Source of the DNA: Alkalispirochaeta americana
GTDB taxonomy: Bacteria; Spirochaetota; Spirochaetia; DSM-27196; Alkalispirochaetaceae
Reading direction: 5' to 3'
Assembly (NCBI RefSeq): GCF_900156105.1
Contig: NZ_FTMS01000007.1
Coordinates: 1 to 64,000 of the forward strand
DNA: 64,000 nucleotides
The notes under the pieces were generated by a model. That model ran no database searches. It saw only the letters and a program-made list of their open reading frames with translations, and was not told where the DNA came from. Made by a program: the position numbers and the translations under genes. Numbering within the stretch: the stretch's first letter is position 1; each line of letters opens with the position of its first letter. Shown here one piece after another: positions 714-26,647 of the stretch.

Positions 714-992
714 CTGGATCGTTCAAGTATACGTGTCTACTGAAGTCAGTATAGGCCATCTCGTTTGCGTTTGTTTGCTGATCCGGAAGAGCGCTTGCAC
801 GTCCGCGTCTTGGAAGATGATCGCACATCAGATGGGCGAAACTGGTTAGAGTACGTGCAAGACTATATGCGTAGCTAAAGAGTTGCTTCTCGGACTTGAA
901 GACGGGAGCCGTGATTGGGTATAGTTTTTCCGCTTGACTACCAGAAAGATTGTGGGAGTATAAGTGATGTGTTAGAGGTATTATCTATATCA
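714..992. other. Spacer between IS remnants and island, with a possible gene tail
   Basis: About 280 bases contain no recognisable complete gene. The first roughly 40 bases are probably the end of the IS3 fragment. From about 750 one plus-strand frame stays open and ends at TAA 876-878. Its last 32 codons read as a charged, protein-like tail starting DPEERLHVRVLEDDRTSDGR. This could be the 3' remnant of a gene cut by the IS, but the family cannot be recognised. The stretch before 993 is AT-rich and may hold the promoter of the island; no convincing -35/-10 pair was seen. Confidence 0.35.
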
Positions 993-2297: not shown

Positions 2298-2299
2298 AG

Positions 2300-6587: not shown

Positions 6588-6680
6588 CAGCCTATAATGA
6601 GCCCAAGAAATCAGACAGTCTGACGGGGCGGTTTATCGAATATCCTTACCACCCAAAGACAAAGGCGATAGGATACAGAT

Positions 6681-10242: not shown

Positions 10243-11325
10243 ATGGACTTGATATTTGCCGCTGCCGGAGCAACGCTGTTTTCGGCGGTTCTGGTTCGTT
10301 TTTTGATAGGCTTGGCGCGCAATCGCGCTTGGTACGATTGGACCGACGAGCGCAAGGCCCACGATGGAAACATCCCCTTTCTGGGTGGCATCGGCATCTC
10401 GGTGAGTTTTTTCACCGTTGGTCTGAGCGCGTTCTTTCTCTTTCATTATACCGCCCAGGGTCGGGCCTTCTCCTTCTGGTACATGGCCGCAATTCTGGCG
10501 GGGTTGCTCCTGATCCACGCCACGGGTGTCTTTGACGACTTCCGGAACATCCCCGCCCTCAAGAAGCTTTCTCTCCAGATCCTGGCGGCGGGCATTATCG
10601 TTGCCGGGGGGCCTGTTATCCGCACCATCCAGTTTTTTGGCCCTGCCACGCAGATCTCCTTGGGGATCTTCGCCGTGCCCTTTACCGTGGCCTGGATTGT
10701 GGGCATGGGCAACGCCGTGAACCTGATCGATGGCATGGACGGCCTTGCCGGCGGGGTTGTCTTTATCGCCTCCCTGGTGCTGGGGGTTCTGGCTGTTGCC
10801 GAGGGAAACGCCCTCACGGCGCTTTTGGCCTTCACCCTCTGCGGGGCCATAGCGGGGTTTCTGGTCTTTAACCTGCCTCCGGCAAAAATCTTCATGGGCG
10901 ATGGCGGCGCGCTCTTTCTGGGCTACGCCGTGGCGGTGTTGCCCATCCTCTCCCGGGGGGGGGAGGTTCTCCCCGTGCCGGTGCTGGTGCCGATCTCGCT
11001 GCTTCTGGTTCCCATTGCCGATATCGTGGCCGCCGTGATCCGGCGCAAATCCCGTGGGTTGCCCTTCCACAGCGCCGATCGGGAGCACATTCATCACAAA
11101 TTGCAGGATGCGGGCCTCTCCGTTCCCCAGGCCCTGGCCGTCATCTACGGCTTTTGCGGTCTCATGGCCTTCTCGGTCCTGGCCTTCAAGCTGCTTCACA
11201 ACGGGTTCCGCCTGGCCATTCTCTCGGGAGCCTGGACCGCTGTCGCCCTGGCGGTGATCATGCTCTATCGGTATCAGGCCGCAGACTCCCGCCACCAGCC
11301 CGACGAGGTCGCCCGAACCTCCTGA
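10243..11325 (+). CDS. wecA: Undecaprenyl-phosphate N-acetylhexosamine-1-phosphate transferase (WecA/TagO family)
   Basis: The 360-residue polytopic protein transfers a HexNAc-1-phosphate from its UDP-sugar to undecaprenyl phosphate, starting lipid-linked glycan synthesis. Family marks are all present: the DD pair in VFDDFRNIP (98-99), NAVNLIDGMDGLAGG (157-171), FMGDGGALFLGY (217-228) and the HIHH motif (282-285) in the last cytoplasmic loop. About ten membrane helices are evident. AGGGG lies about eight bases before the ATG. With the WbaP-type enzyme at 25229 the window holds two different initiating transferases. Confidence 0.9.
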   Translation: MDLIFAAAGATLFSAVLVRFLIGLARNRAWYDWTDERKAHDGNIPFLGGIGISVSFFTVGLSAFFLFHYTAQGRAFSFWYMAAILAGLLLIHATGVFDDFRNIPALKKLSLQILAAGIIVAGGPVIRTIQFFGPATQISLGIFAVPFTVAWIVGMGNAVNLIDGMDGLAGGVVFIASLVLGVLAVAEGNALTALLAFTLCGAIAGFLVFNLPPAKIFMGDGGALFLGYAVAVLPILSRGGEVLPVPVLVPISLLLVPIADIVAAVIRRKSRGLPFHSADREHIHHKLQDAGLSVPQALAVIYGFCGLMAFSVLAFKLLHNGFRLAILSGAWTAVALAVIMLYRYQAADSRHQPDEVARTS

Positions 11326-11924: not shown

Positions 11925-12059
11925 AGCTTCACACCAAAACACACTATGCCACGAATAATATACCAAACAACGGGCCCCTCGCCTTCGAGGGTGGCCTGTG
12001 AGTAACCTCCAGAGCGCAAGTAGCGCTTGAGGAGATCTCCCCCACCTTGGAGTATAACA

Positions 12060-13601
12060 ATGGACCGATTTCTCTCTTGCCCGGGACGGCCCTTCGGGGT
12101 CGTGGCTGTTTTCTGCATCCTGCTCGCGGGCAATCTGGGTGCCACGGAACCTCTGACAACCCTGGGGCACCCCCGGGACGACCAGCCCGAGGGATTTTCC
12201 CTTTCCGTGGCCGCACATCTTGCCGGAGGAACAGGCCGCACGCCCTTCTGGGTGCAATCCCGGCAGTGGGGGCTCTACACCGATTCTGCTCTGCAGGCCT
12301 CCCAGAGTCTGGAGGGGATCTATCGCCACCAATTCGGGGAGCACGGCGAACTCACGGCGCTTCTTGATCTTGATCTCTTTACCGATGACGACGGCCTGGA
12401 ACCGCGGTTGCGCTTTGGTTACGCTGCGCTGCAATGGCGCGAGCTCATCCTCAAAGCCGGTGTGTTCCCGGAGCTTCTGGGGATAACACCCCACCCGGAT
12501 CTCTCGTCGGGGTCCATGGCTGTGAGTGGGAACGCCCGGCCCTTGCCGAAAGTTCAGATATCAACCGACGGCTTTGTCAGTGTGCCCGGCACGCAGGAGG
12601 CGCTTCAGGTAAAACTGGGGCTGAACCACGGCTGGTACACGGGGGAGCGCTACCAGGGTCGGGAGCTGCTCCACGAGAAGTGGGCCTACGCGCGGCTGGG
12701 GTTGCCCCAGGAGTTCGGCTTCTACGCCGGGCTCATCCACCACGGCACCTGGGGCGGCGATGCAACCAGCGTTGATCTGGACAGCTATCTGCGGATTCTC
12801 CGCGCCTCCGGCGGCGGCAGCGACGATCTTGCGACCTTTCAGAAAGGAAACTTCGGGAACAACCGGGGAATCTGGGATATTGGCGTCCAGGCTCCCTTCG
12901 AGGACTTTCGGGTCGATCTGTATCATCACAACTTTTTTGAGCAAAACCGGGATTACAAGTTCCGGAACGGCCGCGACGGTCTCTGGGGTGTGGCGCTTCG
13001 GCTGGATCGCCCGGGATGGTGGCCCACCACCTTTGTGGTGGAACACGTCCGGACAAGTTACCAGAGTGGTTCCTATCATACCTTCCGGGAGCTGTACAGG
13101 GATAACGAAGAGCACTTTAAAGGCGATGGTATTGATGATGTTACCGATGATCCCGGAGCAATTGATGTGCACCGTGGAAGAAGCAGCTACTACTCCCACG
13201 GCATCTACCGAAACGGCTGGTCCCATCAGGATCGGATAATCGGCAATCCCTTCATAATGGGAACGGGGTCGGGGGAGGATTTCAGAATAGCCAGTAACCG
13301 TGTCAGAGCGGGCCACTACGGTCTGGGGGGCGCGATAGACCGGCACGTTCAGTACCACCTGCTTTTTTCCTATGTGGAGCACCTCTCTACCGAAGTGAGC
13401 GGATCGCCCCGCTACGCACCCCGCACCATCGTGCCCGAAGGGGAAACCTGGGTGCAGACCCACAGCTATCTTGGTCTCACTATGGCCCGGGCCTTCGGGA
13501 AGGATTCCCTGACCGTCTCGGCCGGTCTGGGTCTTGATGTGGGAGACGTATACGACGATGCCCTGGGAATGAGCCTCTCCCTGCGGTGGTTCTTTCGCTA
13601 G
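12060..13601 (+). CDS. Wzi-like capsule assembly outer-membrane protein
   Basis: A 513-residue exported protein. The signal peptide (VVAVFCILLAGNLGATEP) is followed by a beta-rich body with the family opening HLAGGTGRTPFWVQSRQWGLY and many alternating strands, as in Wzi beta-barrels that anchor capsule at the outer membrane. The C-terminus ends with aromatic-rich LSLRWFFR, as expected for an outer-membrane barrel. The frame is open from 12027, but ATG 12060 has GGAG about nine bases before it. The segment EVSGSPRYAPRTIVPEGETW (near residue 450) recurs in degraded form at 15.4 kb. Confidence 0.8.
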   Translation: MDRFLSCPGRPFGVVAVFCILLAGNLGATEPLTTLGHPRDDQPEGFSLSVAAHLAGGTGRTPFWVQSRQWGLYTDSALQASQSLEGIYRHQFGEHGELTALLDLDLFTDDDGLEPRLRFGYAALQWRELILKAGVFPELLGITPHPDLSSGSMAVSGNARPLPKVQISTDGFVSVPGTQEALQVKLGLNHGWYTGERYQGRELLHEKWAYARLGLPQEFGFYAGLIHHGTWGGDATSVDLDSYLRILRASGGGSDDLATFQKGNFGNNRGIWDIGVQAPFEDFRVDLYHHNFFEQNRDYKFRNGRDGLWGVALRLDRPGWWPTTFVVEHVRTSYQSGSYHTFRELYRDNEEHFKGDGIDDVTDDPGAIDVHRGRSSYYSHGIYRNGWSHQDRIIGNPFIMGTGSGEDFRIASNRVRAGHYGLGGAIDRHVQYHLLFSYVEHLSTEVSGSPRYAPRTIVPEGETWVQTHSYLGLTMARAFGKDSLTVSAGLGLDVGDVYDDALGMSLSLRWFFR

Positions 13602-13663: not shown

Positions 13664-14263
13664 ATGAACATGACCTCATCAGATACACAGGACACCCCCG
13701 ATCTGCGCGAGCTCGATCTGCTTGCGCACATTCACCAGGGATCTCGCCTGGAGCAGGGCCACAGCCAGCGCAGTCTGGCCGCTGCCCTGGGCCTCTCCCT
13801 GGGCATGACCAACGTTATTTTGAAACGTATGGTCACCCGGGGCTTTGTGCTGGTGCGCCGCACCGAGGGGCACCGCTCCCAGTACCTGCTCACACCTCGG
13901 GGGATGGAACAGCTGGGCAAGCGAAGCTACCGCTATCTGCGGCGTACCGTGGGCCACGTGGTGCGCTACAAGGAGCTGATCCGCCAGGAACTGCGGAATC
14001 ACCGCAAGGAGGGCGGCCGCAGGGTGGTGCTGGTTGGCACAAGCGATCTTGAGTTTATCCTGGAATGGTGCGCTTGCAAGGAAGGCCTCCTTCTGGAACG
14101 GTGCCCCACCGCGAGCGAGCCCGAAGAGCCAGGCCCGTCAGAGAGTGATACGCTCCTGCTCTGGTCCGAGAAAGCCCCGAACCCCCGGGGAAAAACCCTG
14201 ACAGACCTGCTTGAACCGCCTGCGTTACCGCGCTCGGCCAACGGGCAGAATGAAACAATATAA
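13664..14263 (+). CDS. MarR-type winged-helix regulator of the EPS region
   Basis: The 199-residue protein has an N-terminal winged helix-turn-helix (HSQRSLAAALGLSLGMTNVILKRMVTRGFV) and a wing (RRTEGHRSQYLLTPRGMEQL), then a helical linker and a C-terminal part with VVLVGTSDLEFILEWCACKEGL. The first half matches MarR-like regulators often found inside exopolysaccharide clusters. Met 13664 or 13670 are equally possible starts. It lies 16 bases before the epimerase and so is probably in its operon. It probably adjusts capsule gene expression; the ligand is unknown. Confidence 0.75.
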   Translation: MNMTSSDTQDTPDLRELDLLAHIHQGSRLEQGHSQRSLAAALGLSLGMTNVILKRMVTRGFVLVRRTEGHRSQYLLTPRGMEQLGKRSYRYLRRTVGHVVRYKELIRQELRNHRKEGGRRVVLVGTSDLEFILEWCACKEGLLLERCPTASEPEEPGPSESDTLLLWSEKAPNPRGKTLTDLLEPPALPRSANGQNETI

Positions 14264-14279
14264 CCCGACAGGAGTCTTT

Positions 14280-15350
14280 ATGAACGTATTGGTAACCGGC
14301 GCGGCCGGATTTATCGGCTATCACCTGACACAGCGCCTCCTGAGCGAGGACCACCAGGTGGTGGGCCTGGATAATGTCAACGACTATTACGATGTAACCC
14401 TCAAGGAAGGGCGCCTGCGGCAGCTGGGGATATCCCTCTGTGACGGAGCCGGCCCTCTGGCAGGACAGGAAAACTTCACCTTCCACCGGATGGACCTGGA
14501 AGACAGCGCGGCGGTTCGGGACCTCTTTTTGGCCGAGCGCTTCGACGTGGTTGTGAATCTGGCCGCCCAGGCGGGGGTTCGCTACTCCCTGACCAACCCC
14601 GGGGCGTATATTTCCAGCAACATCCAGGGGTTTTTGAGCATTCTGGAAGCCGCCCGGGCCCAGGCCGATGCAGGAACCCCCGTGAAACACCTGGTCTATG
14701 CCTCGTCCAGCTCGGTCTACGGAATAGATCCCCACAAACCCTTTGCGGAGCAAACCGCCGCAGACCACCCCGCCAGCCTCTACGCCGCCAGCAAACGTTC
14801 CAACGAGCTTATGGCTCACACCTATTCGCACCTCTATGGCCTGCCCGCCACGGGGTTGCGCTTCTTTACCGTCTATGGCCCCTGGGGCCGCCCCGATATG
14901 GCGCTCTTCCTCTTTACCAAGGCAATTCTGGAGGGAAAGGCGATCGATGTCTTTAACCACGGCAAGATGGAGCGGGATTTTACCTACGTTGATGATATAG
15001 TAGAGGGAATCCGCCGGGTGATGGATCGTGTTCCTGCGGGAGACCCCGCCTGGGACGGCCACCAAAGCGGGGTGAGCCCGGCACCCTGCCGGGTCTACAA
15101 CATAGGCCGGGGAGCACCGGTGCGACTCATGGATTTTATCGAGGCCCTGGAGGAAGAGCTTGGCCAAAAGGCCCGCAAGAACATGATGCCCCTCCAGGCC
15201 GGCGACGTGACCGCCACCTTTGCCGATTGCACCGCCCTGGAGCAGGACACGGGCTACCGCCCCGTTACGGAAGTGCGCCAGGGGATCGCCGCCTTTGTGG
15301 CCTGGTACCGTGAGTTTTATGGGATATCACGGCCCCGTCTTCAAGTCTGA
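14280..15350 (+). CDS. NAD-dependent epimerase, UDP-glucuronate 4-epimerase type
   Basis: An extended short-chain dehydrogenase of 356 residues. It has the Rossmann motif GAAGFIG (7-13), the serine triad ASSSSVYG, and the catalytic YxxxK at Tyr168/Lys172 (YAASK). Sequence features RYSLTNPGAYISSN and TVYGPWGRPDMALFLFTKAI are typical of UDP-glucuronate 4-epimerases (WbnF/Cap1J type). It would make UDP-galacturonate for capsule. Start ATG 14280 follows ACAGGAG by a good spacing; the upstream in-frame 23 codons lie within the regulator gene's end. The last residues (FVAWYREFYGI) are the normal family end. Confidence 0.85.
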   Translation: MNVLVTGAAGFIGYHLTQRLLSEDHQVVGLDNVNDYYDVTLKEGRLRQLGISLCDGAGPLAGQENFTFHRMDLEDSAAVRDLFLAERFDVVVNLAAQAGVRYSLTNPGAYISSNIQGFLSILEAARAQADAGTPVKHLVYASSSSVYGIDPHKPFAEQTAADHPASLYAASKRSNELMAHTYSHLYGLPATGLRFFTVYGPWGRPDMALFLFTKAILEGKAIDVFNHGKMERDFTYVDDIVEGIRRVMDRVPAGDPAWDGHQSGVSPAPCRVYNIGRGAPVRLMDFIEALEEELGQKARKNMMPLQAGDVTATFADCTALEQDTGYRPVTEVRQGIAAFVAWYREFYGISRPRLQV

Positions 15351-15351
15351 G

Positions 15352-15519
15352 AATCGCCCCCATACCAACCTCTCTGCGGAAGTGAGTGGCGATTCGAGTT
15401 ATGCACCGTGTACGGTCGTTCCGGAGGGAAATCCGTGGGTTCCGCCGCATGCCTTGGTTGGTGCAACCTTCACTCAGGCATTCGGCCGGGATGAACCTCA
15501 GTCTGCAGTGGAGCTTCAT
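15352..15519 (+). pseudogene. Remnant of a second Wzi-like gene (C-terminal piece)
   Basis: Translated in the frame of the following GT2, this segment reads HTNLSAEVSGDSSYAPCTVV and continues to LVGATFTQAFGRDEPQ. It parallels the Wzi-like protein at 13.38-13.55 kb (HLSTEVSGSPRYAPRTIVPE, then YLGLTMARAFGKDSLT). No start or N-terminal body exists, because the epimerase ends immediately before it. It looks like the 3' scar of a deleted or recombined wzi copy. Confidence 0.65.
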
Positions 15520-16428
15520 GTGAAACACGAAACGGTAGCGGTTTCAGTCGTTATTCCCGTTTTCAACGATGCAGAGGCCCTCGAACGGTGCCTCCGGCAA
15601 TTACAGATGCAAACGCACGACCACCGTCGTTTTGAGGTGATTGTCGTGGACAACGGGTCAACGGATCATACTCGGGAGGTGGCTACGTCGTTCCCCGGGG
15701 TGAAGCTCTTGGTTGAGTCGACGTATCGAAATAGTCCGTACTCCGCACGAAACCGTGCGATCGAGATCGCACGGGGCGCCGTGATTGCGCTCATCGACGC
15801 TAATTGTTATCCGGATCCGGAATGGCTCTCGGAGGCCGTATCCGCGATGGAGGGGGAGTCGGCGGACCTGGTGGCCGGGAATGTTCTCTTCGATATCACT
15901 GAACCGTTCCGGGCGGCACACATCGTCGATGGAATGACAAATATCCGCATGCGCGAGTCCGTCGAGAAGAAAAGTGTTGCCAAGACGGCGAATCTGATCG
16001 TGAAGAAGGACGTGTTTAACCAGCTGGGTTTGTTTCCGGAAGGCTTGCGGTCCGGCGGAGACGTCCGGTGGACGGGAGAGGCGGTCTCCATCGGGTTGAA
16101 ACTGGTATTCGCGGAGAACGCGGTTGTAAGAAAGGCGCCTCGGGATTGGGCGGAACTGCTCAAGAAACAGTGGCGGGTCGCGCGGGGACAACCGGCTATC
16201 TGGAAAGAACCAGAGAAGCATCTGCGTGTTTCCGAATTGCTCGGCAAGATGTTGATACCGCCGAGAATACGAACCACAAAGAGAAAGGCGGAGAACGTTC
16301 TCCTCGAGACGGTGGGGCGTACCGGTTTGCTCACCATTCCGCTCCTCCTGAAAATCTGGTTCTTACGTTTGGCGGTACAGATTGTGATGGGTTTCGCGCA
16401 TATCGTGTTCGTTCTGAAGCAGCGGTAA
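15520..16428 (+). CDS. GT2-family glycosyltransferase
   Basis: A 302-residue GT-A glycosyltransferase. It has VSVVIPVFNDAEALERCLRQ, the donor strand VIVVDNGSTDHT, and SARNRAIEIARGAVIALIDANCYPDPEW, where DxN replaces the classical DxD. RSGGDVRWTGEA follows as the acceptor-side acidic motif. It ends with a hydrophobic helix (PLLLKIWFLRLAVQIVMGFAHIVFVL), so it is probably membrane associated. GTG 15520 is chosen because GGAG ends six bases before it and the longer frame upstream is Wzi debris. It is paralogous to the GT2 at 20025. Confidence 0.8.
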   Translation: MKHETVAVSVVIPVFNDAEALERCLRQLQMQTHDHRRFEVIVVDNGSTDHTREVATSFPGVKLLVESTYRNSPYSARNRAIEIARGAVIALIDANCYPDPEWLSEAVSAMEGESADLVAGNVLFDITEPFRAAHIVDGMTNIRMRESVEKKSVAKTANLIVKKDVFNQLGLFPEGLRSGGDVRWTGEAVSIGLKLVFAENAVVRKAPRDWAELLKKQWRVARGQPAIWKEPEKHLRVSELLGKMLIPPRIRTTKRKAENVLLETVGRTGLLTIPLLLKIWFLRLAVQIVMGFAHIVFVLKQR

Positions 16429-16708: not shown

Positions 16709-17671
16709 ATGACTCAAATCTACACATCCGTCGGAGGATCCTACAAGACAGGATCGTCGGCGGTGGTTGCGCTCCTGCGCGAATACCGGAACACACAGAC
16801 CTTTCCCGGTGAGTTCAAGCTCCTGGAAGGGCAGACCCGACAGATCCTGATCCGCTTGGCCCAGGGAAGCGTTGACGGCGACGCCTTGGGGCTACTGGAG
16901 CGGGAGCTCCTGGGCTATGCCAGAAGATCTTCCGACCTGGCGCGCCTTCGGGCTCAAGGTCTCCGAAGGCTTCAGGGCAAGCTGCCCGAGAACAGCAAGT
17001 TCTCAAAAATGCTTGCTCCCCACCTCAGAACCGCATCGTTTCCGGTGAAGCGTGTTTTTCCCGATTATCCCGACGCTGTTCGATCCCTTGTGGCCGACCT
17101 TCGCGCTGCACATCGGGAGAATCGCCTCTCTCCCGGGTCTGCAAGCTTGGCCCTGGAGAGCTTTCTCCTCCGGCTCTTTGCAATCTCCCCCTCTTCTCCA
17201 CAGATCCCTGTGCTTGACCAGTTTCTCAAGCCGGGGAACCTGCCCCTGGCTCCTCTCTTTCCTTCGGGCCGGTTTATTCTGGTTACCCGGGATCCCCGCG
17301 ATCAGTTCTGTGATATCCTCTCTCGAAAAACTCCCAAACCCAAATATCTCCGTCCGGAAAGGGCTGCCACCTTTGCCTGGGACTACGCCCGTCGCTACCG
17401 GCACGAAGACGAACTCCTGGCGAATGCCCCAGATAACGTTTTGGCCGTGGCCTTTGAGGATCTGGTCTATCGCTACACCGAAACAAAAAGTCGTGTTGAA
17501 GCGTTCCTTGGCCTCGATCCAGCTATGTGGCAAGGCCCCCGGTTCTTTCTTCCTGATCAGGCGCGGGCAAACACAAGACTCTATCCCGCTCATCCCCGAC
17601 AGGAGGAGATCGATCTGATTGAATCGCAGGTGGCCTTTCGCCTGTACCCCTTCGATGAGGTGTGTCCATGA
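16709..17671 (+). CDS. Sulfotransferase-like protein
   Basis: The 320-residue protein opens with a PAPS-type phosphate loop (GGSYKTGSSAV, residues 9-19). VTRDPRDQF at 192-200 corresponds to the 3'-phosphate-binding motif of the sulfotransferase superfamily. Between them is a helical acceptor-binding region. It would sulfate a glycan or other acceptor in the cytoplasm using PAPS; acceptor and activity are inferred. Its stop overlaps the next start in ATGA, so the two are translated together. A second, distinct sulfotransferase-like gene lies at 23153. Confidence 0.7.
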   Translation: MTQIYTSVGGSYKTGSSAVVALLREYRNTQTFPGEFKLLEGQTRQILIRLAQGSVDGDALGLLERELLGYARRSSDLARLRAQGLRRLQGKLPENSKFSKMLAPHLRTASFPVKRVFPDYPDAVRSLVADLRAAHRENRLSPGSASLALESFLLRLFAISPSSPQIPVLDQFLKPGNLPLAPLFPSGRFILVTRDPRDQFCDILSRKTPKPKYLRPERAATFAWDYARRYRHEDELLANAPDNVLAVAFEDLVYRYTETKSRVEAFLGLDPAMWQGPRFFLPDQARANTRLYPAHPRQEEIDLIESQVAFRLYPFDEVCP

Positions 17672-18822
17672 ACTCCCAAAAGATCTCTCTGAAGAAAAAC
17701 GATCTCCTGCTGCAAGTAGCCGAGCGGTATTTTGCCGACCGTGATCTGTCCCGTCTTGCCCTGGAGGGGCTGCCCCCGGGCCACAATGGACCCTACCGGC
17801 ACCCCGAGACGCCCCTGCGTGTTGTCTCTCACTGGGCTCTGGTAACGGCCTTTTTGTACCGTCTCTCGGGAGAAACCCGCTGGCATCAGGTCTGCTGTGC
17901 CCTGCGGGATTACATCCTCTCCGATGCCGCTCGCCCCCAGGGGGGGAACGTCTACCATCGGGAGATCGAGGGAAAAGACCGCTGTAACGGTCTGATTGGC
18001 CCCGCCTGGACCATGGAGGCGCTCACGGCATTGGGAGATGCGCTCCAGGATCAGGCCTGCCACGATCTGGCCCGGAAACTCGCAGATCTGCACCCCTTTG
18101 ACGAATCCTGGGGGCTATGGCGTGTGGTTGATCTTGATGGAACAGTCCTGGGGTTTGATAACACCTTTAATCATCAGCTCTGGTTTGCCTCGGCGGCGGC
18201 TTTTGTTGCGGATGATAATGATAGCTCCTCGCCGGTTCTTCGTCAGGTGAGACGGTTTCTGGATGCCACAGAACAGAACCTGCATATTTACCCCGATGGT
18301 CTGATATACCATTTTACCGCCCGCCGTCTGCCCAAGGCGGGACCGGGGGATCCCTTGCCCGAACGTTTTCGCCAGGCCCTCAAGAATATCCTCAAGCCTG
18401 ATCCAGGGCCTCCCCGGGAAGTCACGGCCCCGCAGCGCATGAAATGGACAGGGTATCATCAGTTCAATCTCTATGCCTTTGCGCGTCTGCACGAGCGGTT
18501 TCCTGGCCATCCCCTCTGGACACGCGGTGATTTCCGCCGGGCCGTGGCGCTTCTTTTGGCACCTTCGTACCGGGAAGAGCTGGCGGAGCCGGAGAATATC
18601 TACAGCTTCGGCTACAATCCCCCGGGTTTTGAGATCCCCTACGCTCTGGAACGTCTGGGAGACCTCACTCCGGAAGAGCTGGAAGAGGAACGGTCCTTCT
18701 GGCTGGAGCAGCAAATTTCAGCTACCTTTGATCCCCGGACGGGGCAATTTAGCAGGGGAACCGCCGATCCGGCTACTCTCACGGCGAGAATCTGCGAGCT
18801 GACCCGCTGGTCAGAACGGTAA
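17668..18822 (+). CDS. (alpha/alpha)-barrel glycan-active protein, AglQ-like
   Basis: About 384 residues with recurrent helical repeats and conserved aromatic/His motifs: GPYRHPETPLRVVSHWALV, NGLIGPAWTMEAL, FDNTFNHQLWFA, GLIYHF and KWTGYHQFNLYAF. The pattern resembles proteins called AglQ in glycan clusters and (alpha/alpha)6 toroids such as lyases and unsaturated glucuronyl hydrolases. No signal peptide is seen, so it would act in the cytoplasm. ATG 17668 overlaps the sulfotransferase stop by four bases. Its end overlaps the convergent kinase-like gene by 44 bases. The reaction is unknown. Confidence 0.6.
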   Translation: MNSQKISLKKNDLLLQVAERYFADRDLSRLALEGLPPGHNGPYRHPETPLRVVSHWALVTAFLYRLSGETRWHQVCCALRDYILSDAARPQGGNVYHREIEGKDRCNGLIGPAWTMEALTALGDALQDQACHDLARKLADLHPFDESWGLWRVVDLDGTVLGFDNTFNHQLWFASAAAFVADDNDSSSPVLRQVRRFLDATEQNLHIYPDGLIYHFTARRLPKAGPGDPLPERFRQALKNILKPDPGPPREVTAPQRMKWTGYHQFNLYAFARLHERFPGHPLWTRGDFRRAVALLLAPSYREELAEPENIYSFGYNPPGFEIPYALERLGDLTPEELEEERSFWLEQQISATFDPRTGQFSRGTADPATLTARICELTRWSER

Positions 18823-19945
18823 GGATTGGGGCCATTTTTCTGTTTCGCGGAGACAGGACCGCCAGGGATTCCAGAAGGCCCGTCAGAAGCAGCGCGGTTA
18901 CCTGCAGGGGCCGGTCCCTTCTCAGGCCACGGAGTCCTGGTGTCGCCAGTTCGGCATAATCCACGGAGGTGCCGGTGGCCACTTTTTCCCAGTATTCTGC
19001 GGCCTGAGGGCGCTGGTCCTTCTCGTGGCAGTAATGAAGCGTCTGACGCTCCAGTTCCACCAGAAGGGCTCCTTCGGTGTGGCGGTAGGCGGATGCCCAG
19101 TCGATTACGGTAATCTTCGGTGGTGTATTGTTTCGGGAGCGGGCTCTGAGCAGGTTATGTCGAGCCAGGTCGTGGTGGACAAGGGTGGTGGTGGTCATCC
19201 GGGAGAGCTCACCGGTGATCGCGGTGTCGTGTGTTATCCGGTGAAGGGCTTCAAGAAGTTCCGGAGACCATCCCCTGGCGATGGCCCTTCTGTGACATCG
19301 GGCCAGGTGTTCCGATATTCCTTCGTCAAGGGGGGCCTGGAGGTTCCGGGCGATATCGAACACAACGGGGATTACCCGGGTTGTTGTAAAGTCGGACCAT
19401 TCCTTTCGGGGACAGGGAGATCCCGGAGCAAGGGTTTGCGTAATGAATCCCAGAGTTCCGTCCAGGCCCGTGCCTGCCCTCAAGAGCAGGGGAACTCCGT
19501 CCTGCCTCTTGTCTGCCAGGGCCTGAAGGTTCTCGCTCTCCCGCCGAAACTCAGCGCTCTTTTGGGGAAGAGGCAGAATTTTTGTGATTTCCCGACGTTC
19601 CCGGTCCAGAAGAACACAGACGTTGGATGAGCCCTGGGTATACACGAAGGGTGCCGCTCCCGGGGGTGCGGCGATATGCCCGGCGCAGTAGACAATCTTC
19701 CGGGGAATCTCTCCCCGCCCCAAGCTTTGGCAGGCGATCTTCAGTATTTTGGGCAGGGATCCTGGCCCCCGCAACCTCAGGAGATACCGGAGAAGCCCCC
19801 GGCGAGATCCGATTCTGAAAAGCTTGGGTGAGAAGGCCGACCCCCACAGAGGCGTCTTTTGCCCCTCGGGATAGAGAGTTTCCAGCGCCGCGAGAAGCGC
19901 GGAATTATTCGCAGATGTAGCCCGGTGCGATGATGCCATGGCCAC
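18779..19945 (-). CDS. Kinase-like (APH/choline-kinase fold) protein
   Basis: The 388-residue protein has the small-molecule kinase core: the catalytic loop LVHHDLARHNLL (HHDxxxxN at 257-264) and the magnesium-binding aspartate in VIDWAS (282). Lys122 in EITKILPLP may be the ATP lysine, and the glutamate in EFRRESENL follows. The N-terminal 100 residues are basic and unassigned. It could phosphorylate a sugar or glycan precursor, but the substrate is unknown. The start is GTG 19945 or ATG 19939; neither has a strong ribosome site. It faces the AglQ-like gene and overlaps its 3' end. Confidence 0.65.
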   Translation of the reverse strand: MAMASSHRATSANNSALLAALETLYPEGQKTPLWGSAFSPKLFRIGSRRGLLRYLLRLRGPGSLPKILKIACQSLGRGEIPRKIVYCAGHIAAPPGAAPFVYTQGSSNVCVLLDRERREITKILPLPQKSAEFRRESENLQALADKRQDGVPLLLRAGTGLDGTLGFITQTLAPGSPCPRKEWSDFTTTRVIPVVFDIARNLQAPLDEGISEHLARCHRRAIARGWSPELLEALHRITHDTAITGELSRMTTTTLVHHDLARHNLLRARSRNNTPPKITVIDWASAYRHTEGALLVELERQTLHYCHEKDQRPQAAEYWEKVATGTSVDYAELATPGLRGLRRDRPLQVTALLLTGLLESLAVLSPRNRKMAPILTVLTSGSARRFSP

Positions 19946-20024
19946 GAGACTATCACAATTTTCCGGAATCCGGTACTCTCTGTGGTACTAACTCTTTGAG
20001 ACACCAAGCGAGCAACAATTATTC

Positions 20025-20939
20025 ATGGTCGATACAGTACTTCTTCCAGTTCCGATACCCTCGGTTACCGTCATCTGCCCCTTTTACAATCTGACCCCCT
20101 ACCTGGACCGGCTCCTGCCATCCCTGGCGTCCCAGGATTATCCCGGGCCATCCCGGATACTTCTGGTGGATAACCGCTCCACCGATGGCTCTCCCCAGGT
20201 CTGTCGGGATGCGGGTTTCACCGTTCTCTCCTGCGATCACCTGGCTTCGTCCTATGCTGCCAGAAACGTGGGGATTCGCAACGCCTCGGGGGATATCCTT
20301 GCCTTCATAGATGCCGATTGCGCGGCGGCTCCCGACTGGCTTTCCCGGGGGGTCTCGGCGCTGGAGCAAAGCGGTGCGGATTTTCTCGCGGGCAATGTCC
20401 TCTTCGAGTTCAGGAATCCTCACTCGCCCTGGGAACAGTTGGAGGCCGCACTCCACATGGATAATGAGGCGCTGGCAGCCATGGGTCGCGCCGTGACTGC
20501 CAATGTCTTTGTCCGGAGATCGCTCTTTGGCCGGGTGGGATTATACCGGGAGCACCAAGTCTCGGGAGAAGACGTAGCCTGGTCCCTGAGGGCTGTCGCT
20601 GCCGGAGCTCGCCTGGCCTACTGCCCCCGCACGGTGGTCTACCATCCCACCCGTGACGGGAGGGAATCTCTGAAGAAGGCCTTCCGGGTGGGTCGGGGCA
20701 TGCGGGCGCATCGTGCCGGTGCACACGGATTAGGGGTTCTGAAGCGAGTTATACGCAGTTTTCTCCCCCCCTCCCTTGGACCGGCCTTGCGGGCCCTTCG
20801 GGGAAAGGGATATCCCGCCCGTTCAATCCGGATTATTGGTCCCCTTTGGGCGCTTTCTCTGTGCAAGGCTGCCGGGCTCGTGCGGGAATCGGCGGTCCGG
20901 GCCTTTGTTTCGTCACAGCCATCAGGGAGCGATCCATGA
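20025..20939 (+). CDS. GT2-family glycosyltransferase
   Basis: A 304-residue GT-A enzyme. It has VTVICPFYNLTPYLDRLLPS, ILLVDNRSTDGS, then SYAARNVGIRNASGDILAFIDADCAAAPDW with the metal-binding DAD, and VSGEDVAWSLRAV near the active-site end. Its architecture and several motifs (AARN, AGNVLFEF) are shared with the GT2 at 15520, indicating an old duplication. Its TGA overlaps the start of the next gene. It begins about 80 bases from the divergent kinase-like gene, so the two may share a promoter region. The sugar is unknown. Confidence 0.8.
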   Translation: MVDTVLLPVPIPSVTVICPFYNLTPYLDRLLPSLASQDYPGPSRILLVDNRSTDGSPQVCRDAGFTVLSCDHLASSYAARNVGIRNASGDILAFIDADCAAAPDWLSRGVSALEQSGADFLAGNVLFEFRNPHSPWEQLEAALHMDNEALAAMGRAVTANVFVRRSLFGRVGLYREHQVSGEDVAWSLRAVAAGARLAYCPRTVVYHPTRDGRESLKKAFRVGRGMRAHRAGAHGLGVLKRVIRSFLPPSLGPALRALRGKGYPARSIRIIGPLWALSLCKAAGLVRESAVRAFVSSQPSGSDP

Positions 20940-21883
20940 GAACCCTTGTGCCTCCCCGCACCACCCTGGGAGCAATAGCCCGGGGATCCGTGATCCCCGG
21001 TGTCGGCACGGTGGAAAGCGTGCACCCCTTGATTTCGCGGGTTGATCGGTTGCGGGGCAGGTTTCACCGCAATAGTGCTGCCTACCTCCTGGTGACCACC
21101 GGGGGGCATTCTTTCAAGTGCGCCGTTTTTCGTCAGGCAACAACTGCGGTTGCGGCCACAGCGGAGCTGGTCCGGCGGTTTGAGGCCGGGGGACACAGCG
21201 ATGCTGTTCCCGCTGTCCGGTATGCCGATGAGTTGTGCCTGATAGCTGAATACCTTCCCGGGCGGGTTTTGTCGCCGGTCTCGCTCACCGGGGAACGGGC
21301 CTCTGAGCTGGGACACTTTATCGCCACACGGCAACTTTCGGCAGATCCTCAGAAAGATATTCCCTATCGCAGATTGCTGGAGCATACCTTGGCCAGCCCC
21401 GGGATCGACCCGAATCTCCAGAAGCAGCTTGGGCAGGCTCTTTCCCGGGCCGGCGGGTTGGACGACACGCCCTGGGGAGTGTGTTTCTTTGACAGCGCTC
21501 TGAAAAACTACGTTGAGTCTCCCCAAGGTGATTTTTCCTATATTGATCTCTTTGGAATTGCCCTGCGTCCTTTGGGAACTTCCCTGGTGCGACAGGCTCT
21601 GGCGGTTCCTTCGGGGCACCGGGAGGCGTTTCTTGACGGGTGGTTTTCCGCAACCGGGCAAGGATCTCGCATTCGCGACGGGCTCCCCGGCTACTGTTTG
21701 CATCACCTGATATATCGTTTGTGCCATCAAGCGGATCACCCGGAAAAGAGCGTGCATCGCACTGGTATGAGGCGGCGCAAACGCCGTCAGGCCTTTCTGG
21801 TTGCTGCAACGGAGCTTCAGCGGTGCCTTGATCTGCCCCACGACCCCGAAAGCTTCTACCGCTGGATCTTATCGGTCCGGTAG
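20936..21883 (+). CDS. Degenerate kinase-fold protein
   Basis: About 315 residues starting at ATG 20936, which overlaps the upstream TGA (ATGA). A loop CFFDSALKNYV gives DxxxxN spacing and YIDLFGI gives the following aspartate, as in kinase catalytic and metal-binding loops. The usual His before the catalytic Asp is missing. TAELVRRFEAGG and LIAEYLPGRVLSP fit the N-lobe and hinge. It is probably related to the kinase-like protein at 18779 but more diverged. Whether it is active cannot be judged. The context suggests partnership with the adjoining GT2. Confidence 0.5.
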   Translation: MRTLVPPRTTLGAIARGSVIPGVGTVESVHPLISRVDRLRGRFHRNSAAYLLVTTGGHSFKCAVFRQATTAVAATAELVRRFEAGGHSDAVPAVRYADELCLIAEYLPGRVLSPVSLTGERASELGHFIATRQLSADPQKDIPYRRLLEHTLASPGIDPNLQKQLGQALSRAGGLDDTPWGVCFFDSALKNYVESPQGDFSYIDLFGIALRPLGTSLVRQALAVPSGHREAFLDGWFSATGQGSRIRDGLPGYCLHHLIYRLCHQADHPEKSVHRTGMRRRKRRQAFLVAATELQRCLDLPHDPESFYRWILSVR

Positions 21884-22972
21884 AACCCCCGAGAGAATGT
21901 GCCGGACCCGTGCTTCGCGGGTGAATCGCTCCAGGAAGAGTTTCCGGGCTGTTCGGGAGAGCTCATCCTGTTGCCGGGGGTCTTCAAGGAGGGTGCGCAA
22001 GGTCTGTTCCCACTCCTCTGGTCGGGAAGGATTGCAGAGGCGTGCGCTCCCGCTTCCGACAATTTCCCGGATGATTGGCAAATCCGAGGCGATAAAGCAG
22101 CACCCATGGGCCATATACTCAAAGACTTTTAGGGGCGAGCCCCAGATCGTGTCGTCCCGCAGGGGGTTCTTACAGGCCGATTCCTGGTAGGGGGCCAGAA
22201 AAATGGGCCAGGTCCGATAATATTTGCCCAGTTCTTGCTGCGAAACCTGGCCGTGAAAGACCACGTTTTTTGGGGCCTGGGCGCTCCACTTCTGTATGTC
22301 TTCCGGGGATCCTCCCACAATATGGAAGGGTATCCCGGGCATGCGTCGGGCTACAGACAGGATCAGCCCCGGGCCTTTATGGGCGTGAAGTTGCCCGGCG
22401 TAGCCCACAGCGGGCTTTCGGATCGACGATTCTCCCGTGACCTCTATGGAGTGGGGAAGGTCCGCTCCGTTAGGTGCCACCAGAATCTCTTTGTGTGCCA
22501 GTTCAGGGAAGTTTTCCCGGTAATAGTCGGCCAGAGCACGGGATACCGTGATCAGGCGGAAGAAGGATTTCCGGGAAAAGAGACGCCGGTGAAGGTGTCT
22601 CTTTGTGGCGTTTGCCGGGGGCATATGCGCTTCATAGATCTGGGGTTGAGAGGTGTTGCCCAAAGCAAGAAGCGCGTAGATATCCCTGCCGTAGATGAGG
22701 TCTGTCTGATCAAGGAGGGTTCGGGCCTGATTTGCGGTCCTTCGCCCGAAGAGGCTTCGCGAAACCAGGGGAACCCGGCCCAGGGGGTGACGGAAGAGTT
22801 CCGGCGGGGTCTCGACGCCGTAGTAATCGGTTATCGGTTCCGATCCTCCCGTAGCCCCAAAAAGAGTGACCTGGTGCCCCTGCTGGACCATGGCGGCGCA
22901 GTTTTTCACAACCTGCACACTATTGGCCGCCCGGGAAGGAATGGGTGAGAGCGAGAGATAAAGTATCCTCAT
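21869..22972 (-). CDS. GT4-family glycosyltransferase
   Basis: A 367-residue GT-B glycosyltransferase: MRILYLSLSPIPSRAANSVQ, acceptor domain with DLIYGRDIYALLAL and VSRALADYYRENFP, then donor domain VGYAGQLHAHKGPGLIL. The donor site is PYQESACKNPLRDDTIWGSP and LKVFEYMAHGCCFIASDLP. ATG 22972 has GGAGG just upstream; the 29 extra upstream codons have no support. It converges on, and overlaps by 15 bases, the kinase-fold gene. It is divergent from the sulfotransferase at 23153 across an AT-rich promoter region. Confidence 0.85.
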   Translation of the reverse strand: MRILYLSLSPIPSRAANSVQVVKNCAAMVQQGHQVTLFGATGGSEPITDYYGVETPPELFRHPLGRVPLVSRSLFGRRTANQARTLLDQTDLIYGRDIYALLALGNTSQPQIYEAHMPPANATKRHLHRRLFSRKSFFRLITVSRALADYYRENFPELAHKEILVAPNGADLPHSIEVTGESSIRKPAVGYAGQLHAHKGPGLILSVARRMPGIPFHIVGGSPEDIQKWSAQAPKNVVFHGQVSQQELGKYYRTWPIFLAPYQESACKNPLRDDTIWGSPLKVFEYMAHGCCFIASDLPIIREIVGSGSARLCNPSRPEEWEQTLRTLLEDPRQQDELSRTARKLFLERFTREARVRHILSGVLPDR

Positions 22973-23152
22973 TGTGCCTCCAGTTATAGGAGAGTCTGGG
23001 GATAAGGTAAAGGCTTGCAGCATATTCTCTTGAATATTGTTTGCTGGGTTTTTCTGCACAAATGATTTTCTCGCATACCCGCAAAGGAAGATGAGGGAAA
23101 AAGTTGCTCATGGCTATGATAACTTTTTGATCTATGCGATAAACGAAGAGTA

Positions 23153-24172
23153 ATGGACATGAATGTAATAGATCTTGTTCTTCATATCGGTTTGCGAAAG
23201 ACCGGAACGACCACCTTTCAAAGGAAGGTCTTTCCCGCTCTTCTTCCTCAAGGATATCTTGGAAAAGGGGCAGGAAGGGGAAGGCATTTCTCATATCTCA
23301 TGGGCGAAATAATCAAAGGCCAGGATCCGGTAAAGACCATAGATATACTTCTGGATGATATTGCTCAGATCGCAGAGGGTCAATTACGAAATGATACCGG
23401 ACGTTCCTCCTTTGTGATAAGTAGTGAAGGTATGTCCTCCGGGCCTGGCCCGGGGGTTATGGCCGCTCCCAGAATCGAAGACATCCAGCCGACGATTCCT
23501 GAAAATTATCCAGTTTTCTCTGTCCTGCCAGTGCTTTGCGAGAAGTGGAGTTCGCGTTTCAGCGGCCAGGTAAAAATCATTCTGTCCATTCGTGATCAGC
23601 GGAAGATGCTCGCTTCGGAGTATTCCCAGCGAAGCGCCTACAGGATTGCCCCCTCACAACAGGATTTTGAAGATCGGGCACGAGCGTACTTACAGTCGGG
23701 AGACCATCATCTGAACTACTACCTTTGGGCCGATGCCATAGAGAAGGCTGTTGGCAGGGATAATATGCTCATTTTTGACATCGCTGCAGTCAGCAACAGA
23801 GAAGCTCTCGAGCGGCTTGCAGGTTTTTTATGTGGGGCAGATCGAACCGATTTGAATGAACTTGATGCCGAGAACCCTGCGAATGTTTCCCGCGTTTCCG
23901 GCACGTCCTGGAAGATCCGGAATTTCCGGTTAAGCAAGATCATGAAACGCTACTCATCCAGACGATTTCGTAGAACGCTGATATACCGCAAGATTCGGAA
24001 ATTCGTGAAGATCTTTGACGTTCCGGTGGGAAATCTGGTACGAAGAATTTTTGCCAGGGAATGTCCCGACGTCATAACCTTGAATGAAGACATCTTGCAA
24101 AAGATATTCGAGCAAACCGATGTTTCCAACGAGAAGCTTGGCAGGGAGTATTCTGACCGTTTGGTTCAATGA
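23153..24172 (+). CDS. Sulfotransferase-family protein
   Basis: The 339-residue protein starts VIDLVLHIGLRKTGTTTFQR, the PAPS-binding phosphate loop of sulfotransferases (GLRKTGTTT). KIILSIRDQRKMLASEYSQR corresponds to the 3'-phosphate-binding Arg/Ser segment. The C-terminal third is basic and helical. It probably sulfates a capsular sugar. It is not closely similar to the one at 16709. ATG 23153 or 23159 may start it. The gene is more AT-rich than its neighbours, suggesting transfer. A strong hairpin at 24204 lies between it and the convergent gene. Confidence 0.75.
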   Translation: MDMNVIDLVLHIGLRKTGTTTFQRKVFPALLPQGYLGKGAGRGRHFSYLMGEIIKGQDPVKTIDILLDDIAQIAEGQLRNDTGRSSFVISSEGMSSGPGPGVMAAPRIEDIQPTIPENYPVFSVLPVLCEKWSSRFSGQVKIILSIRDQRKMLASEYSQRSAYRIAPSQQDFEDRARAYLQSGDHHLNYYLWADAIEKAVGRDNMLIFDIAAVSNREALERLAGFLCGADRTDLNELDAENPANVSRVSGTSWKIRNFRLSKIMKRYSSRRFRRTLIYRKIRKFVKIFDVPVGNLVRRIFARECPDVITLNEDILQKIFEQTDVSNEKLGREYSDRLVQ

Positions 24173-24255: not shown

Positions 24256-25161
24256 TCAGGAATCGGTATCCAAGGGTTCTCTGTGCTCTGTGCCGTGGTC
24301 GTCCCCGTAGACCTGCCAGGTAAACCAGTCCGTGAGCGCCACAATGCGCCGCCGGAAGGACCCCGGCAGGTGCACCATCCTCCGCAGAAAGCCCCCCGCC
24401 TCGAGCCCCACCGCCCCGTAGAGCAGGAGATGATCCTCCAGGGGCAGGGCCACCATCTGGAACCGCACCCGTTCTGCCCGCACCACGGGCACAAAAAAGG
24501 TGAGGCTCCGCAGGTTGGTCATGCCCATGCTCACCGCATCGTCCCCGCCGTAGAAACTTGCCTCAAAAAAACTCCTCCCGAAGTTGGAATCCTCAAGATG
24601 GAGCACAAAGGAGCTCTCCCGGGGGACAGCTGTCACCAGCGGGTCCGGCAGGGGGTCCCTGGAGCGCACCGATTCGATCGCGTAGACGTTGTCAAAGAGC
24701 ACCCGCATGCCCCCGGTTCGGCCTGATTCGTACTCCACCCCCGAGAGCTTGCTCACGGCCCGGAAGGTGTTGTAGAGATCCAGCAGGAGTTCTTCGTCGC
24801 TGGTGTAGGGGATTCCCCGGGAGTTTGTCTCGGGCCGGGGCAGAAGAAAAAGCACCTCGTTCACCACGTTGGGTTCAAAATGGCCAAAGCCCCCCCGAAC
24901 CTGGTCGCTGATGCTGCTCCGGGGCAGGTAGCGGAAGGTCAGGGGCTCGTCCTCGCTGTGGAAGATCAGCGAGCCTTCCTCCAGGAGTTCTGCAAGCTCC
25001 GCCCGGGAGATGCCCGGTACCAGGTCTGCTATGGTTGCCTCCAGGGCCGCCGAGCCTGAGGGATCGCTGGCCGGAGTGCCGACCGATGATTGAGACGCCA
25101 CGGGGACCACCACGTTGACGAGAGCGGCAAAGGCCGCCACAATGAAGATATTCTGTTTCAC
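24256..25161 (-). CDS. Conserved exported protein of unknown function (DUF6675-like)
   Basis: About 301 residues. A hydrophobic N-terminal segment IFIVAAFAALVNVVVPVASQ acts as signal peptide, and the mature part has LVPGISRAELAELLEEGSLI, an acidic central region, and SFVLHLEDSNFGRSFFEASFYGGDDAV. No catalytic motif is recognised. It resembles proteins labelled DUF6675, but that is a tentative memory-based match. GTG 25161 places the signal peptide at the N-terminus; ATG 25230 would add 23 residues and overlap the divergent start codon. It probably acts in the periplasm. Confidence 0.55.
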   Translation of the reverse strand: MKQNIFIVAAFAALVNVVVPVASQSSVGTPASDPSGSAALEATIADLVPGISRAELAELLEEGSLIFHSEDEPLTFRYLPRSSISDQVRGGFGHFEPNVVNEVLFLLPRPETNSRGIPYTSDEELLLDLYNTFRAVSKLSGVEYESGRTGGMRVLFDNVYAIESVRSRDPLPDPLVTAVPRESSFVLHLEDSNFGRSFFEASFYGGDDAVSMGMTNLRSLTFFVPVVRAERVRFQMVALPLEDHLLLYGAVGLEAGGFLRRMVHLPGSFRRRIVALTDWFTWQVYGDDHGTEHREPLDTDS

Positions 25162-25228
25162 CCGGGAACGGTACCATGTTTTGGGGCGTTCATCAAAGTG
25201 TTTAGGTTGTTGTAAAGAGGCGCGTACC

Positions 25229-26647
25229 ATGAATCAACGAAGGCGGTCCTTTCTTCGCTATACCCTGATGATCATCGATGCTGCGGTGATCGTTCTCTCC
25301 TACCTGTTTACCTATTACCTCCGAGACAAGCTTTTCACCTTCGGTCTCGATGATCTGGCGCCCTTTCCGGTGTACTTCAACCTTATGGGGACGGTCCTCA
25401 TCGTCTGGATGATCCTCCTGCGGCTCTTCCGGAACTACGATTTCCTCCGGGGGCACCGCCTTGTTTCGGCCTGGCGGATCTGCCGCAACCTGATCCCCGT
25501 GGAGTTGGTGGGGCTGGGTGCCCTGGCCATGGGGCTCTTCTTTATCCGGGATACCGTGATCAGCCGGACCTTCCTCATGACCTTCGCCGGCATCAATTAT
25601 GTGCTTATGGTGGCGGCCAAGCTGCTTTTCCGGGTCTATTTTTACCGTCTGCAAAAGAAGGATCGCTATCACCGGAAGGTTCTGCTTCTGGGGAACAAGC
25701 GGGCCGTGGAGCAGTTTCAGGCCACGGCCAGGACTACGCCGGAGCTCTTGCTGAACGCCACGGTGGAGCCCCGCTTTGCCCTCCCCGTCGAGGAGCATCT
25801 GAGCGATGAGGAGCGGCAGCGCTTTTTTGACGATGTCCTGGATTACGTGACAAAGAACGTGGTGGACGAGGTGGTTCTGGCCTACAGCGATCTCAGGCTC
25901 CAGGAGCTGGCGCCCCTGATCTCCGATTGCCACCGCATGGGGCTCATGGTGAACATCGTCCTGGATTTTTCCGGGATCGAGTATACCCGCTCCGAGGTGG
26001 ATACCGTGGGGCCTTTCAACATTGTTTCCTTTCAGTCCTACGATTTCAGCCCCCTTCAGCGGTTTGTGAAGCACACCATCGATTACGCCATCGGTCTGGT
26101 GGGGTTTCTTGCCTTTCTGGTGATCTTTCTGGTGGTGGCGCCGGCGATCAAGCTCGATTCGCCGGGGCCGATTTTCTTTGTCCAGCCCCGCAAGGGAAAG
26201 AACGGCCGCGATTTCAACCTGGTCAAGTTCCGTACCATGGCGGTCGATGCCGAGGCTCGCAAGGCGGAGCTGATGGAGCAGAACGAGATGCAGGGCCACA
26301 TGTTCAAGATTGCCCGGGATCCCCGCATTACCCGGGTTGGAAAGATCCTGCGGAAGACCAGCCTGGACGAGTTCCCCCAGTTTCTGAATGTCCTGAAGGG
26401 CGATATGAGTATTGTGGGTACCCGGCCGCCCACGGCCGAGGAGTTCCTTCAGTACGAGAAGCACCACCGCCGCAGGTTGAGCGTGGCCCCGGGGATCACC
26501 GGCATGTGGCAGGTGAGCGGGCGCAACCGGATCGATGATTTCGAGGAGATCGTCAAGCTCGATACCTGGTATATCGATCACTGGTCGGTGTGGCTCGATC
26601 TGAGAATTATCTTCAAGACCTTGTTTGTCCTGCTTTCGGGGAGGTGA
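25229..26647 (+). CDS. Polyprenyl-phosphate sugar-1-phosphate transferase (WbaP/EPS initiating type)
   Basis: The 472-residue protein has about four N-terminal membrane helices, a middle nucleotide-binding-like domain (KVLLLGNKRAVEQF), one more membrane helix (VGFLAFLVIFLVVAPAIKL) and the catalytic Bac_transf domain: SPGPIFFVQPRKGKNGRDFN, LVKFRTM, KILRKTSLDEFPQFLNVLKG, MSIVGTRPP and GITGMWQVSGRN. It transfers a sugar-1-phosphate to undecaprenyl phosphate at the inner membrane and starts repeat-unit assembly. ATG 25229 is used; upstream codons belong to the divergent promoter region. The next glycosyltransferase follows almost without gap. Confidence 0.9.
   Translation: MNQRRRSFLRYTLMIIDAAVIVLSYLFTYYLRDKLFTFGLDDLAPFPVYFNLMGTVLIVWMILLRLFRNYDFLRGHRLVSAWRICRNLIPVELVGLGALAMGLFFIRDTVISRTFLMTFAGINYVLMVAAKLLFRVYFYRLQKKDRYHRKVLLLGNKRAVEQFQATARTTPELLLNATVEPRFALPVEEHLSDEERQRFFDDVLDYVTKNVVDEVVLAYSDLRLQELAPLISDCHRMGLMVNIVLDFSGIEYTRSEVDTVGPFNIVSFQSYDFSPLQRFVKHTIDYAIGLVGFLAFLVIFLVVAPAIKLDSPGPIFFVQPRKGKNGRDFNLVKFRTMAVDAEARKAELMEQNEMQGHMFKIARDPRITRVGKILRKTSLDEFPQFLNVLKGDMSIVGTRPPTAEEFLQYEKHHRRRLSVAPGITGMWQVSGRNRIDDFEEIVKLDTWYIDHWSVWLDLRIIFKTLFVLLSGR

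Follow-up and report, generated by a model that had tools for sequence, protein, structure and literature searches.

We analysed the first 64,000 nucleotides (hereafter the window) of contig 7 (NZ_FTMS01000007.1) of Alkalispirochaeta americana, a 3.3-Mb draft genome of 95.6% completeness, and focused on seven genes at positions 16709-24172 that encode two sulfotransferase-type proteins (ST1 and ST2), an AglQ-like (alpha/alpha) barrel protein, two kinase-fold proteins (KIN1 and KIN2), and two glycosyltransferases (GT2b of family GT2 and one of family GT4). All seven open reading frames (ORFs) had been described in an earlier reading of the DNA made without database searches (the sequence-only reading), and each is present as described there. 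That reading had also pointed to start/stop overlaps of 4 bases, and two of these are exact ATGA overlaps (ST1/barrel, 17668-17671; GT2b/KIN2, 20936-20939). The KIN1 gene overlaps the barrel gene tail to tail by 44 bases, and the GT4 gene overlaps KIN2 in the same manner by 15 bases. Because KIN1 and GT4 are encoded on the minus strand, the seven genes form several short units rather than one operon. The genes from ST1 to ST2 sit inside a capsule/exopolysaccharide locus together with several GT2 and GT4 genes, and the export and initiating enzymes of such a locus are present (SLBB, Wzi, PF00953, and PF02397 proteins). The GC content at third codon positions (GC3) was 0.62-0.66 across the ST1-to-GT4 genes and 0.70-0.80 in the Wza, WecA, Wzi, regulator, and epimerase genes, whereas that of ST2 (0.51) was below its neighbors; this contrast fits a central region that was swapped in.

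In profile searches, ST1 was the sole match to PF13469 in the A. americana genome, and no protein of the genome matched PF00685 above the cut-off. By eye, both proteins contain what we take to be 5' and 3' stretches resembling those that bind 3'-phosphoadenosine 5'-phosphosulfate (PAPS), namely KTGSS...RDPRD in ST1 and KTGTT...RDQRK in ST2. Searches against the Protein Data Bank (PDB) sequences listed tyrosine sulfotransferases for ST1 only at E values of 0.05-0.2 and returned chance-like rows only for ST2. Elsewhere in the genome, the genes for a DASS-type permease, CysQ, CysD, and CysNC are adjacent to one another, as they are in G006, a genome of the same genus that carries KIN2; the adenosine 5'-phosphosulfate (APS) kinase domain of CysNC was matched with an E value of 2.9e-65, and CysQ and CysD scored above their cut-offs. 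None of the 46 genomes of the order yielded a sulfite reductase (NIR_SIR) match, whereas 11 of 14 controls did, and CysD was the only PAPS_reduct (PF01507) protein in the A. americana genome, the completeness of which means that gene absences are not absolute. The presence of CysQ, CysD, and CysNC and the absence of NIR_SIR and of other PF01507 proteins indicate that PAPS is made and its by-product PAP removed, and nothing points to assimilatory reduction. The host very likely sulfates something, and the position of the ST genes makes the surface glycan of this locus the likely target. The sulfated surface glycan envisaged in the sequence-only reading is thus supported by the capsule flanks, the PAPS synthesis genes, and the lack of both sulfite reductase and any PAPS_reduct protein apart from CysD. 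Across the order, a strong APS kinase (E < 1e-30, a threshold chosen post hoc after the match list had been viewed) was found in 13 of 19 genomes with a PF13469 protein versus 6 of the 27 others. In genomes G038 (contig C258) and G044 (contig C391), a PF13469 sulfotransferase gene lies approximately 2.5 kb or less from cysD, and the contig also carries the APS kinase gene.

KIN2 had no significant match to Pfam, NCBIfam, or PDB sequences, and the profile of the aminoglycoside phosphotransferase (APH) family (PF01636) matched none of the six members of the KIN2 family (E up to 1). Structure prediction, which the sequence-only reading had suggested, yielded a model (pLDDT 78, pTM 0.76) with the APH/choline-kinase fold (Foldseek E 5.6e-10). 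This model was matched to homoserine kinase (Z 16.6, 6.2 A, 273 residues aligned) and N-acetylhexosamine 1-kinase (Z 15.1, 5.9 A, 282 aligned), and Z values ranged from 13.7 to 16.6 among the 50 matches listed. Four residues, K91, D216, N221, and D234, are invariant in all six members, and they correspond by motif, not by superposition, to the nucleotide-binding Lys, the catalytic Asp, the Asn, and the metal-binding Asp. The His of the HxD motif is replaced in every member (FFD or FSD; CFFDSALKNY in the window protein), which bears out the earlier description of a kinase-fold protein that lacks the customary His ahead of its catalytic Asp. This loss alone does not imply inactivity, given that the remaining catalytic residues do not vary, and from its conserved residues KIN2 is more likely to be an active kinase than a pseudokinase. 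The family is narrowly distributed: it occurred in 5 of 118 genomes of relatives and in 2 of 392 genomes taken from across the phylum; these two belong to a single genus and are included in the five. A scan of 84,980 species, which was seed-based, misses distant relatives, and did not include the record of the window itself, detected KIN2 at five loci, exclusively in spirochaetes.

A sulfotransferase-type gene lies within 2 kb of KIN2 at four of the six loci (the window, L015, L018, and L019). In the window, where the neighbors of KIN2 comprise ST1, ST2, KIN1, and GT4, the nearest such gene is the sub-threshold ST2, with ST1 at 3.3 kb. The neighbors are two sulfotransferases, a KIN1 homologue, and a GT4 protein at L015; a sulfotransferase and, directly adjacent to KIN2, a close homologue of the window GT4 (phmmer E 2e-116) at L018; a GT4 protein and two P-loop proteins at L017; and a Sulfotransfer_1-type gene, a Sulfotransfer_2 protein at 8 kb, a GT4 protein, and, by reading, a further APH-like protein at L019 (A. 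alkalica). Between the Sulfotransfer_2 gene and the KIN2 group, positions 668-4296 of L019 encode an SHMT-like protein, a cytidylyltransferase-APH kinase fusion, and a LicD-family protein, a candidate pathway for amino-alcohol-phosphate decoration. A PF13469 protein and a strong APS kinase were both found in all five KIN2-containing genomes of the order, and each was found in 14 of the remaining 41. With 31 PF13469 matches and a 5-kb reach, the chance of the observed KIN2-sulfotransferase linkage was estimated as 2e-10, a value that presumes genes placed at random and loci that are independent, neither assumption being strictly true. The sequence-only reading had anticipated conserved co-occurrence, and this holds for KIN2 with sulfotransferases but is not borne out for the AglQ-like protein and kinase as a unit: the barrel and KIN2 are found together in only 3 of the 46 genomes, two of which belong to one genus and carry them on different contigs. 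Our literature search found no publication that combined aminoglycoside phosphotransferase, sulfotransferase, glycosyltransferase, and exopolysaccharide.

The barrel protein likewise had no significant match to Pfam, NCBIfam, or PDB sequences. Its predicted structure (pLDDT 72.5, pTM 0.80) is a single (alpha/alpha)6 barrel whose best match was cellobiose 2-epimerase, of the AGE epimerases (Z 22.8, 3.9 A, 327 aligned), followed by unsaturated glucuronyl hydrolase (UGL; Z 21.6, 3.6 A, 314 aligned); the Foldseek E value was only 3.9e-4. Three His residues (H57, H171, and H283) are invariant in the family alignment and are candidate counterparts of the catalytic His residues of AGE epimerases. In G038, the barrel forms the C-terminal region of a GT4 protein of 811 residues, with a similar protein in G044 (C-terminal barrels on GT4 at loci L003/L020 and L005), and G013 (L004/L022) encodes a 1145-residue GT4-barrel-GT4 fusion (L022, 999-4436) whose GT4 parts were assigned by reading and phmmer. 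The barrel is a free gene amid GT2 genes in G012. These fusions and neighborhoods support a role for the barrel in chain building, and its modeled fold suggests that it is probably an epimerase of a uronic acid or other sugar. A terpene cyclase was rejected despite matches to squalene-hopene cyclases (Z 17.9, 3.8 A, 283 aligned), as all five barrel homologues lack the DxDD motif. No barrel was found on plasmids, and none of 21 pattern matches in viral contigs was confirmed. KIN1, which had no match to PDB sequences, is probably an APH-type kinase as judged from its motif and sub-threshold profile score (Table 1).

The features of the locus are compiled in Table 1. The nucleotide-sugar epimerase is presumably of the UDP-glucuronate 4-epimerase type, judging by its sequence, and a supply of UDP-glucuronate is plausible because the genome encodes a member of the UDP-glucose/GDP-mannose dehydrogenase family. 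Near its start, the GT2a ORF contains a stretch (15350-15530) that echoes the C-terminal region of the Wzi-like protein (13360-13601), with SAEVSGDSSYAPCTVVPEG in the former and STEVSGSPRYAPRTIVPEG in the latter; the DNA match is short, and the repeat is perhaps an old, duplicated Wzi remnant. The real start of GT2a is probably downstream of the ORF start. By reading, a truncated IS3-type transposase-like ORF at 6977-7970 is continuous with the C-terminal fragment of a Wzz-like protein, an arrangement suggestive of an insertion into the chain-length gene. Positions 1-6600 of the window have 45-50% GC and GC3 values of 0.44-0.48, most of the remaining window being near 60% GC, and this left end with its Wzy and glycosyltransferase part was perhaps recently imported. 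Downstream of ST2, a DUF6675 protein (E 7.5e-40) is encoded on the opposite strand at 24256-25230. Among the publications that our search on Alkalispirochaeta polysaccharides retrieved, none concerned the capsule of this genus, as judged from titles and the opening lines of abstracts.

Table 1. Genes of the ST1-ST2 region and of the surrounding capsule/exopolysaccharide locus (window coordinates).
Feature	Position	Strand	Evidence
ST1, PAPS-dependent sulfotransferase	16709..17671	+	Sulfotransfer_3 (PF13469) 33.2 bits, cut-off 27
AglQ-like (alpha/alpha) barrel; probably an epimerase, otherwise a glucuronyl-hydrolase-like trimming enzyme	17668..18822	+	predicted structure
KIN1, probable APH-type kinase	18779..19945	-	PF01636 E 2.5e-4, 21.3 bits, cut-off 23.2; motif HHDLARHN
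GT2b, GT2 glycosyltransferase	20025..20939	+	PF00535 E 1.2e-24
KIN2, orphan APH/choline-kinase-fold protein	20936..21883	+	predicted structure, alignment
GT4 glycosyltransferase	21869..23059	-	PF13692 E 6.8e-17
ST2, divergent sulfotransferase-like protein	23153..24172	+	PF00685 E 0.0026, 17.6 bits, cut-off 22
Probable Wzy-type polymerase	915..2297	+	hydrophobic, by reading; no Pfam match
Wza-like export protein, SLBB domains	8643..10154	+	PF10531 above cut-off, PF02563 just under cut-off
WecA-type initiating glycosylphosphotransferase	10243..11325	+	PF00953 E 2e-40
Wzi-like capsule assembly protein	12027..13601	+	PF14052 E 2.2e-18
Nucleotide-sugar epimerase	14211..15350	+	PF01370 E 5.6e-58
GT2a, GT2 glycosyltransferase	15220..16428	+	PF00535 E 6.5e-29, domain begins at residue 109
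WbaP-type initiating sugar transferase	25115..26647	+	PF02397 E 2.8e-65

We favor, with moderate confidence, a reading in which the locus directs the synthesis of a sulfated, uronate-containing surface polysaccharide that receives further tailoring from a sugar kinase and from the epimerase-like barrel. The analysis gives computational support for the donor pathway, the capsule context, the protein folds, and the KIN2-sulfotransferase linkage; the action of the barrel as an epimerase, the substrate of the kinase, and the order of the steps are what we infer. The ST1-ST2 region would be the variable, modifying part of the locus. GT2 and GT4 enzymes would assemble an oligosaccharide containing uronic acid on a lipid carrier, and ST1, probably joined by ST2, would move sulfate from PAPS onto the glycan, with CysD and CysNC supplying PAPS and CysQ removing PAP. 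The barrel may modify a sugar while the chain grows, and epimerization of a uronic acid, the reaction proposed for archaeal AglQ and demonstrated for Agl32, is its most likely activity. As a small-molecule kinase of the APH fold, KIN2 would add phosphate to a sugar, either in this glycan or in the pool of its precursors, and KIN1 perhaps does likewise; a phosphorylated product is plausible but conjectural. A more specific version, which we regard as unlikely, makes the barrel a new family of glucuronyl C5-epimerase acting on the lipid-linked chain and KIN2 a new APH-fold kinase of a sugar in the glycan, so that with the two sulfotransferases the polymer would carry both sulfate and phosphate; the system would then be a bacterial counterpart of the assembly of sulfated, iduronate-bearing glycosaminoglycans, with the epimerase in relatives being a domain of the glycosyltransferase itself.

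The function assigned to the kinases admits other explanations. Both might feed precursor supply as free-sugar kinases in nucleotide-sugar salvage, in the manner of NahK, leaving a polymer that is sulfated only and devoid of phosphate. We take this to be a genuine possibility, given that the KIN2 matches include N-acetylhexosamine 1-kinase, fructosamine kinase, and maltokinase, but KIN2 is accompanied by genes for GT4 proteins and sulfotransferases, not by sugar-nucleotide genes, and a non-exhaustive inspection by annotation and eye noticed no nucleotidyltransferase beside KIN2 in the window, L015, L017, or L018. It is quite unlikely that KIN2 and KIN1 instead make a LicA-like amino-alcohol phosphate for decoration of the phosphocholine or phosphoethanolamine type. 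LicA is indeed among the structural matches of KIN2 (Z 14.3, 5.3 A, 255 aligned), and the L019 cluster holds the cytidylyltransferase-APH fusion and LicD-family protein; however, the pathway at L019 has its own kinase domain, distinct from KIN2, and neither a LicC-like nor a LicD-like gene was recognized in the window's capsule region.

For the barrel, the scores of glucuronyl hydrolases and of GH76 enzymes (Z 18.9) come near those of the AGE epimerases, and an invariant Asp (D166) stands immediately ahead of a helix, as would suit a glycosidase of either kind that trims chains for quality control or length setting. We consider such an enzyme less likely than an epimerase: the GT4 fusions in G038, G044, and G013 fit building rather than cleaving, and a lyase that would generate the unsaturated end was not noted nearby. 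The suggestion that the kinases and a LanC-like barrel constitute a lanthipeptide or other peptide-modifying system finds support in a class III lanthipeptide synthetase low in the barrel Foldseek list (E 6e-3). It appeared highly improbable and was dropped, as the five barrel homologues contain neither the CHG motif nor an invariant Cys, and are fused to GT4 or lie among glycosyltransferase genes.

Several observations weigh against the favored sulfated and further tailored polysaccharide. ST2 scores under the Pfam threshold of its family, neither Wzx nor Wzc was recognized in the window by Pfam scan or reading, and the alphaC Glu varies among KIN2 members. The only KIN1 homologue among the 118 genomes, in G038, has a motif without the Asn. 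L016 and L017 show no sulfotransferase on contigs of 4.3 and 7.3 kb, respectively, L016 being at a contig end, and G005 possesses a strong APS kinase without a PF13469 protein. Two of the five barrel-containing genomes (G012 and G013) have neither a PF13469 protein nor a strong APS kinase. We conclude from the absence of PF13469 in these two genomes that the barrel is a separate module, not specific to sulfated glycans; the idea that the barrel and sulfation travel together was rejected (Fisher 0.33, such values taking no account of shared ancestry, with G038 and G044 representing one genus). Five genomes of the same genus as the window (G001-G005) contain neither KIN2 nor the barrel, which makes the KIN2/barrel module accessory. 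A core genus trait was rejected for the set, as the distribution of the barrel and of KIN2 is patchy.

The sulfated capsule locus of the marine bacterium Vibrio sp. KMM 8419 (PMC11641403) resembles the present one in having sulfotransferase genes among glycosyltransferases and cysDNC in the genome, but it differs in carrying a cysDNC copy within the capsule locus and in using export by an ABC transporter, and the accessible part of that report mentions no APH-fold kinase or AGE/UGL-type barrel, both of which occur in the window. Sulfated glycosaminoglycan-like exopolymers of Pontiella (PMC7356697) also involve PF13469 sulfotransferases, one of them in a GT2/GT4 cluster; the words kinase and epimerase are absent from the main text of that paper, whereas the window has kinase-fold and epimerase-like genes. 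AglQ of Haloferax volcanii (PMC3827465) is a soluble glycan-pathway protein argued to be an isomerase, and the structural homologues listed for it (1fp3, 2afa, Bacillus sp. GL1 UGL, 2zzr, and 1nc5) recur among the matches of the window barrel. This likeness is structural, and AglQ acts on an archaeal N-glycan whereas the window barrel lies in a capsule locus. Agl32 of Halobacterium salinarum (PMC13308652), reported to be a D-glucuronyl C5-epimerase that acts on GlcA within a short glycan, consists, like the barrel by fold, of one helical domain that most resembles AGE epimerases. The glycan of Agl32 also bears sulfate, added by two different enzymes (PMC11980604), but these archaeal enzymes are alkaline-phosphatase-like rather than sulfotransferases of the PAPS type. 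KIN2 shares with the APH/choline kinase/N-acetylhexosamine kinase superfamily its fold and the invariant Lys, Asp, Asn, and Asp, and it departs from that superfamily in the replacement of the HxD His by Phe, the lack of a Pfam or NCBIfam match, and its narrow spirochaete distribution within the searches made. The locus is of a known kind, that of sulfated capsules, and includes KIN2 and the barrel as two orphan families with tailoring roles.

Enzymes of bacterial sulfated polysaccharides are wanted as sources of heparin-like materials, and known bacterial glucuronyl C5-epimerases are very few, one being named in PMC13308652. A spirochaete that makes PAPS and has no detectable sulfite reductase offers a clean setting for tests of sulfation. 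KIN2 represents a sequence-orphan, kinase-fold family tied to sulfotransferases; should glycans prove to be its substrates, the reach of the APH fold would extend to their phosphorylation.

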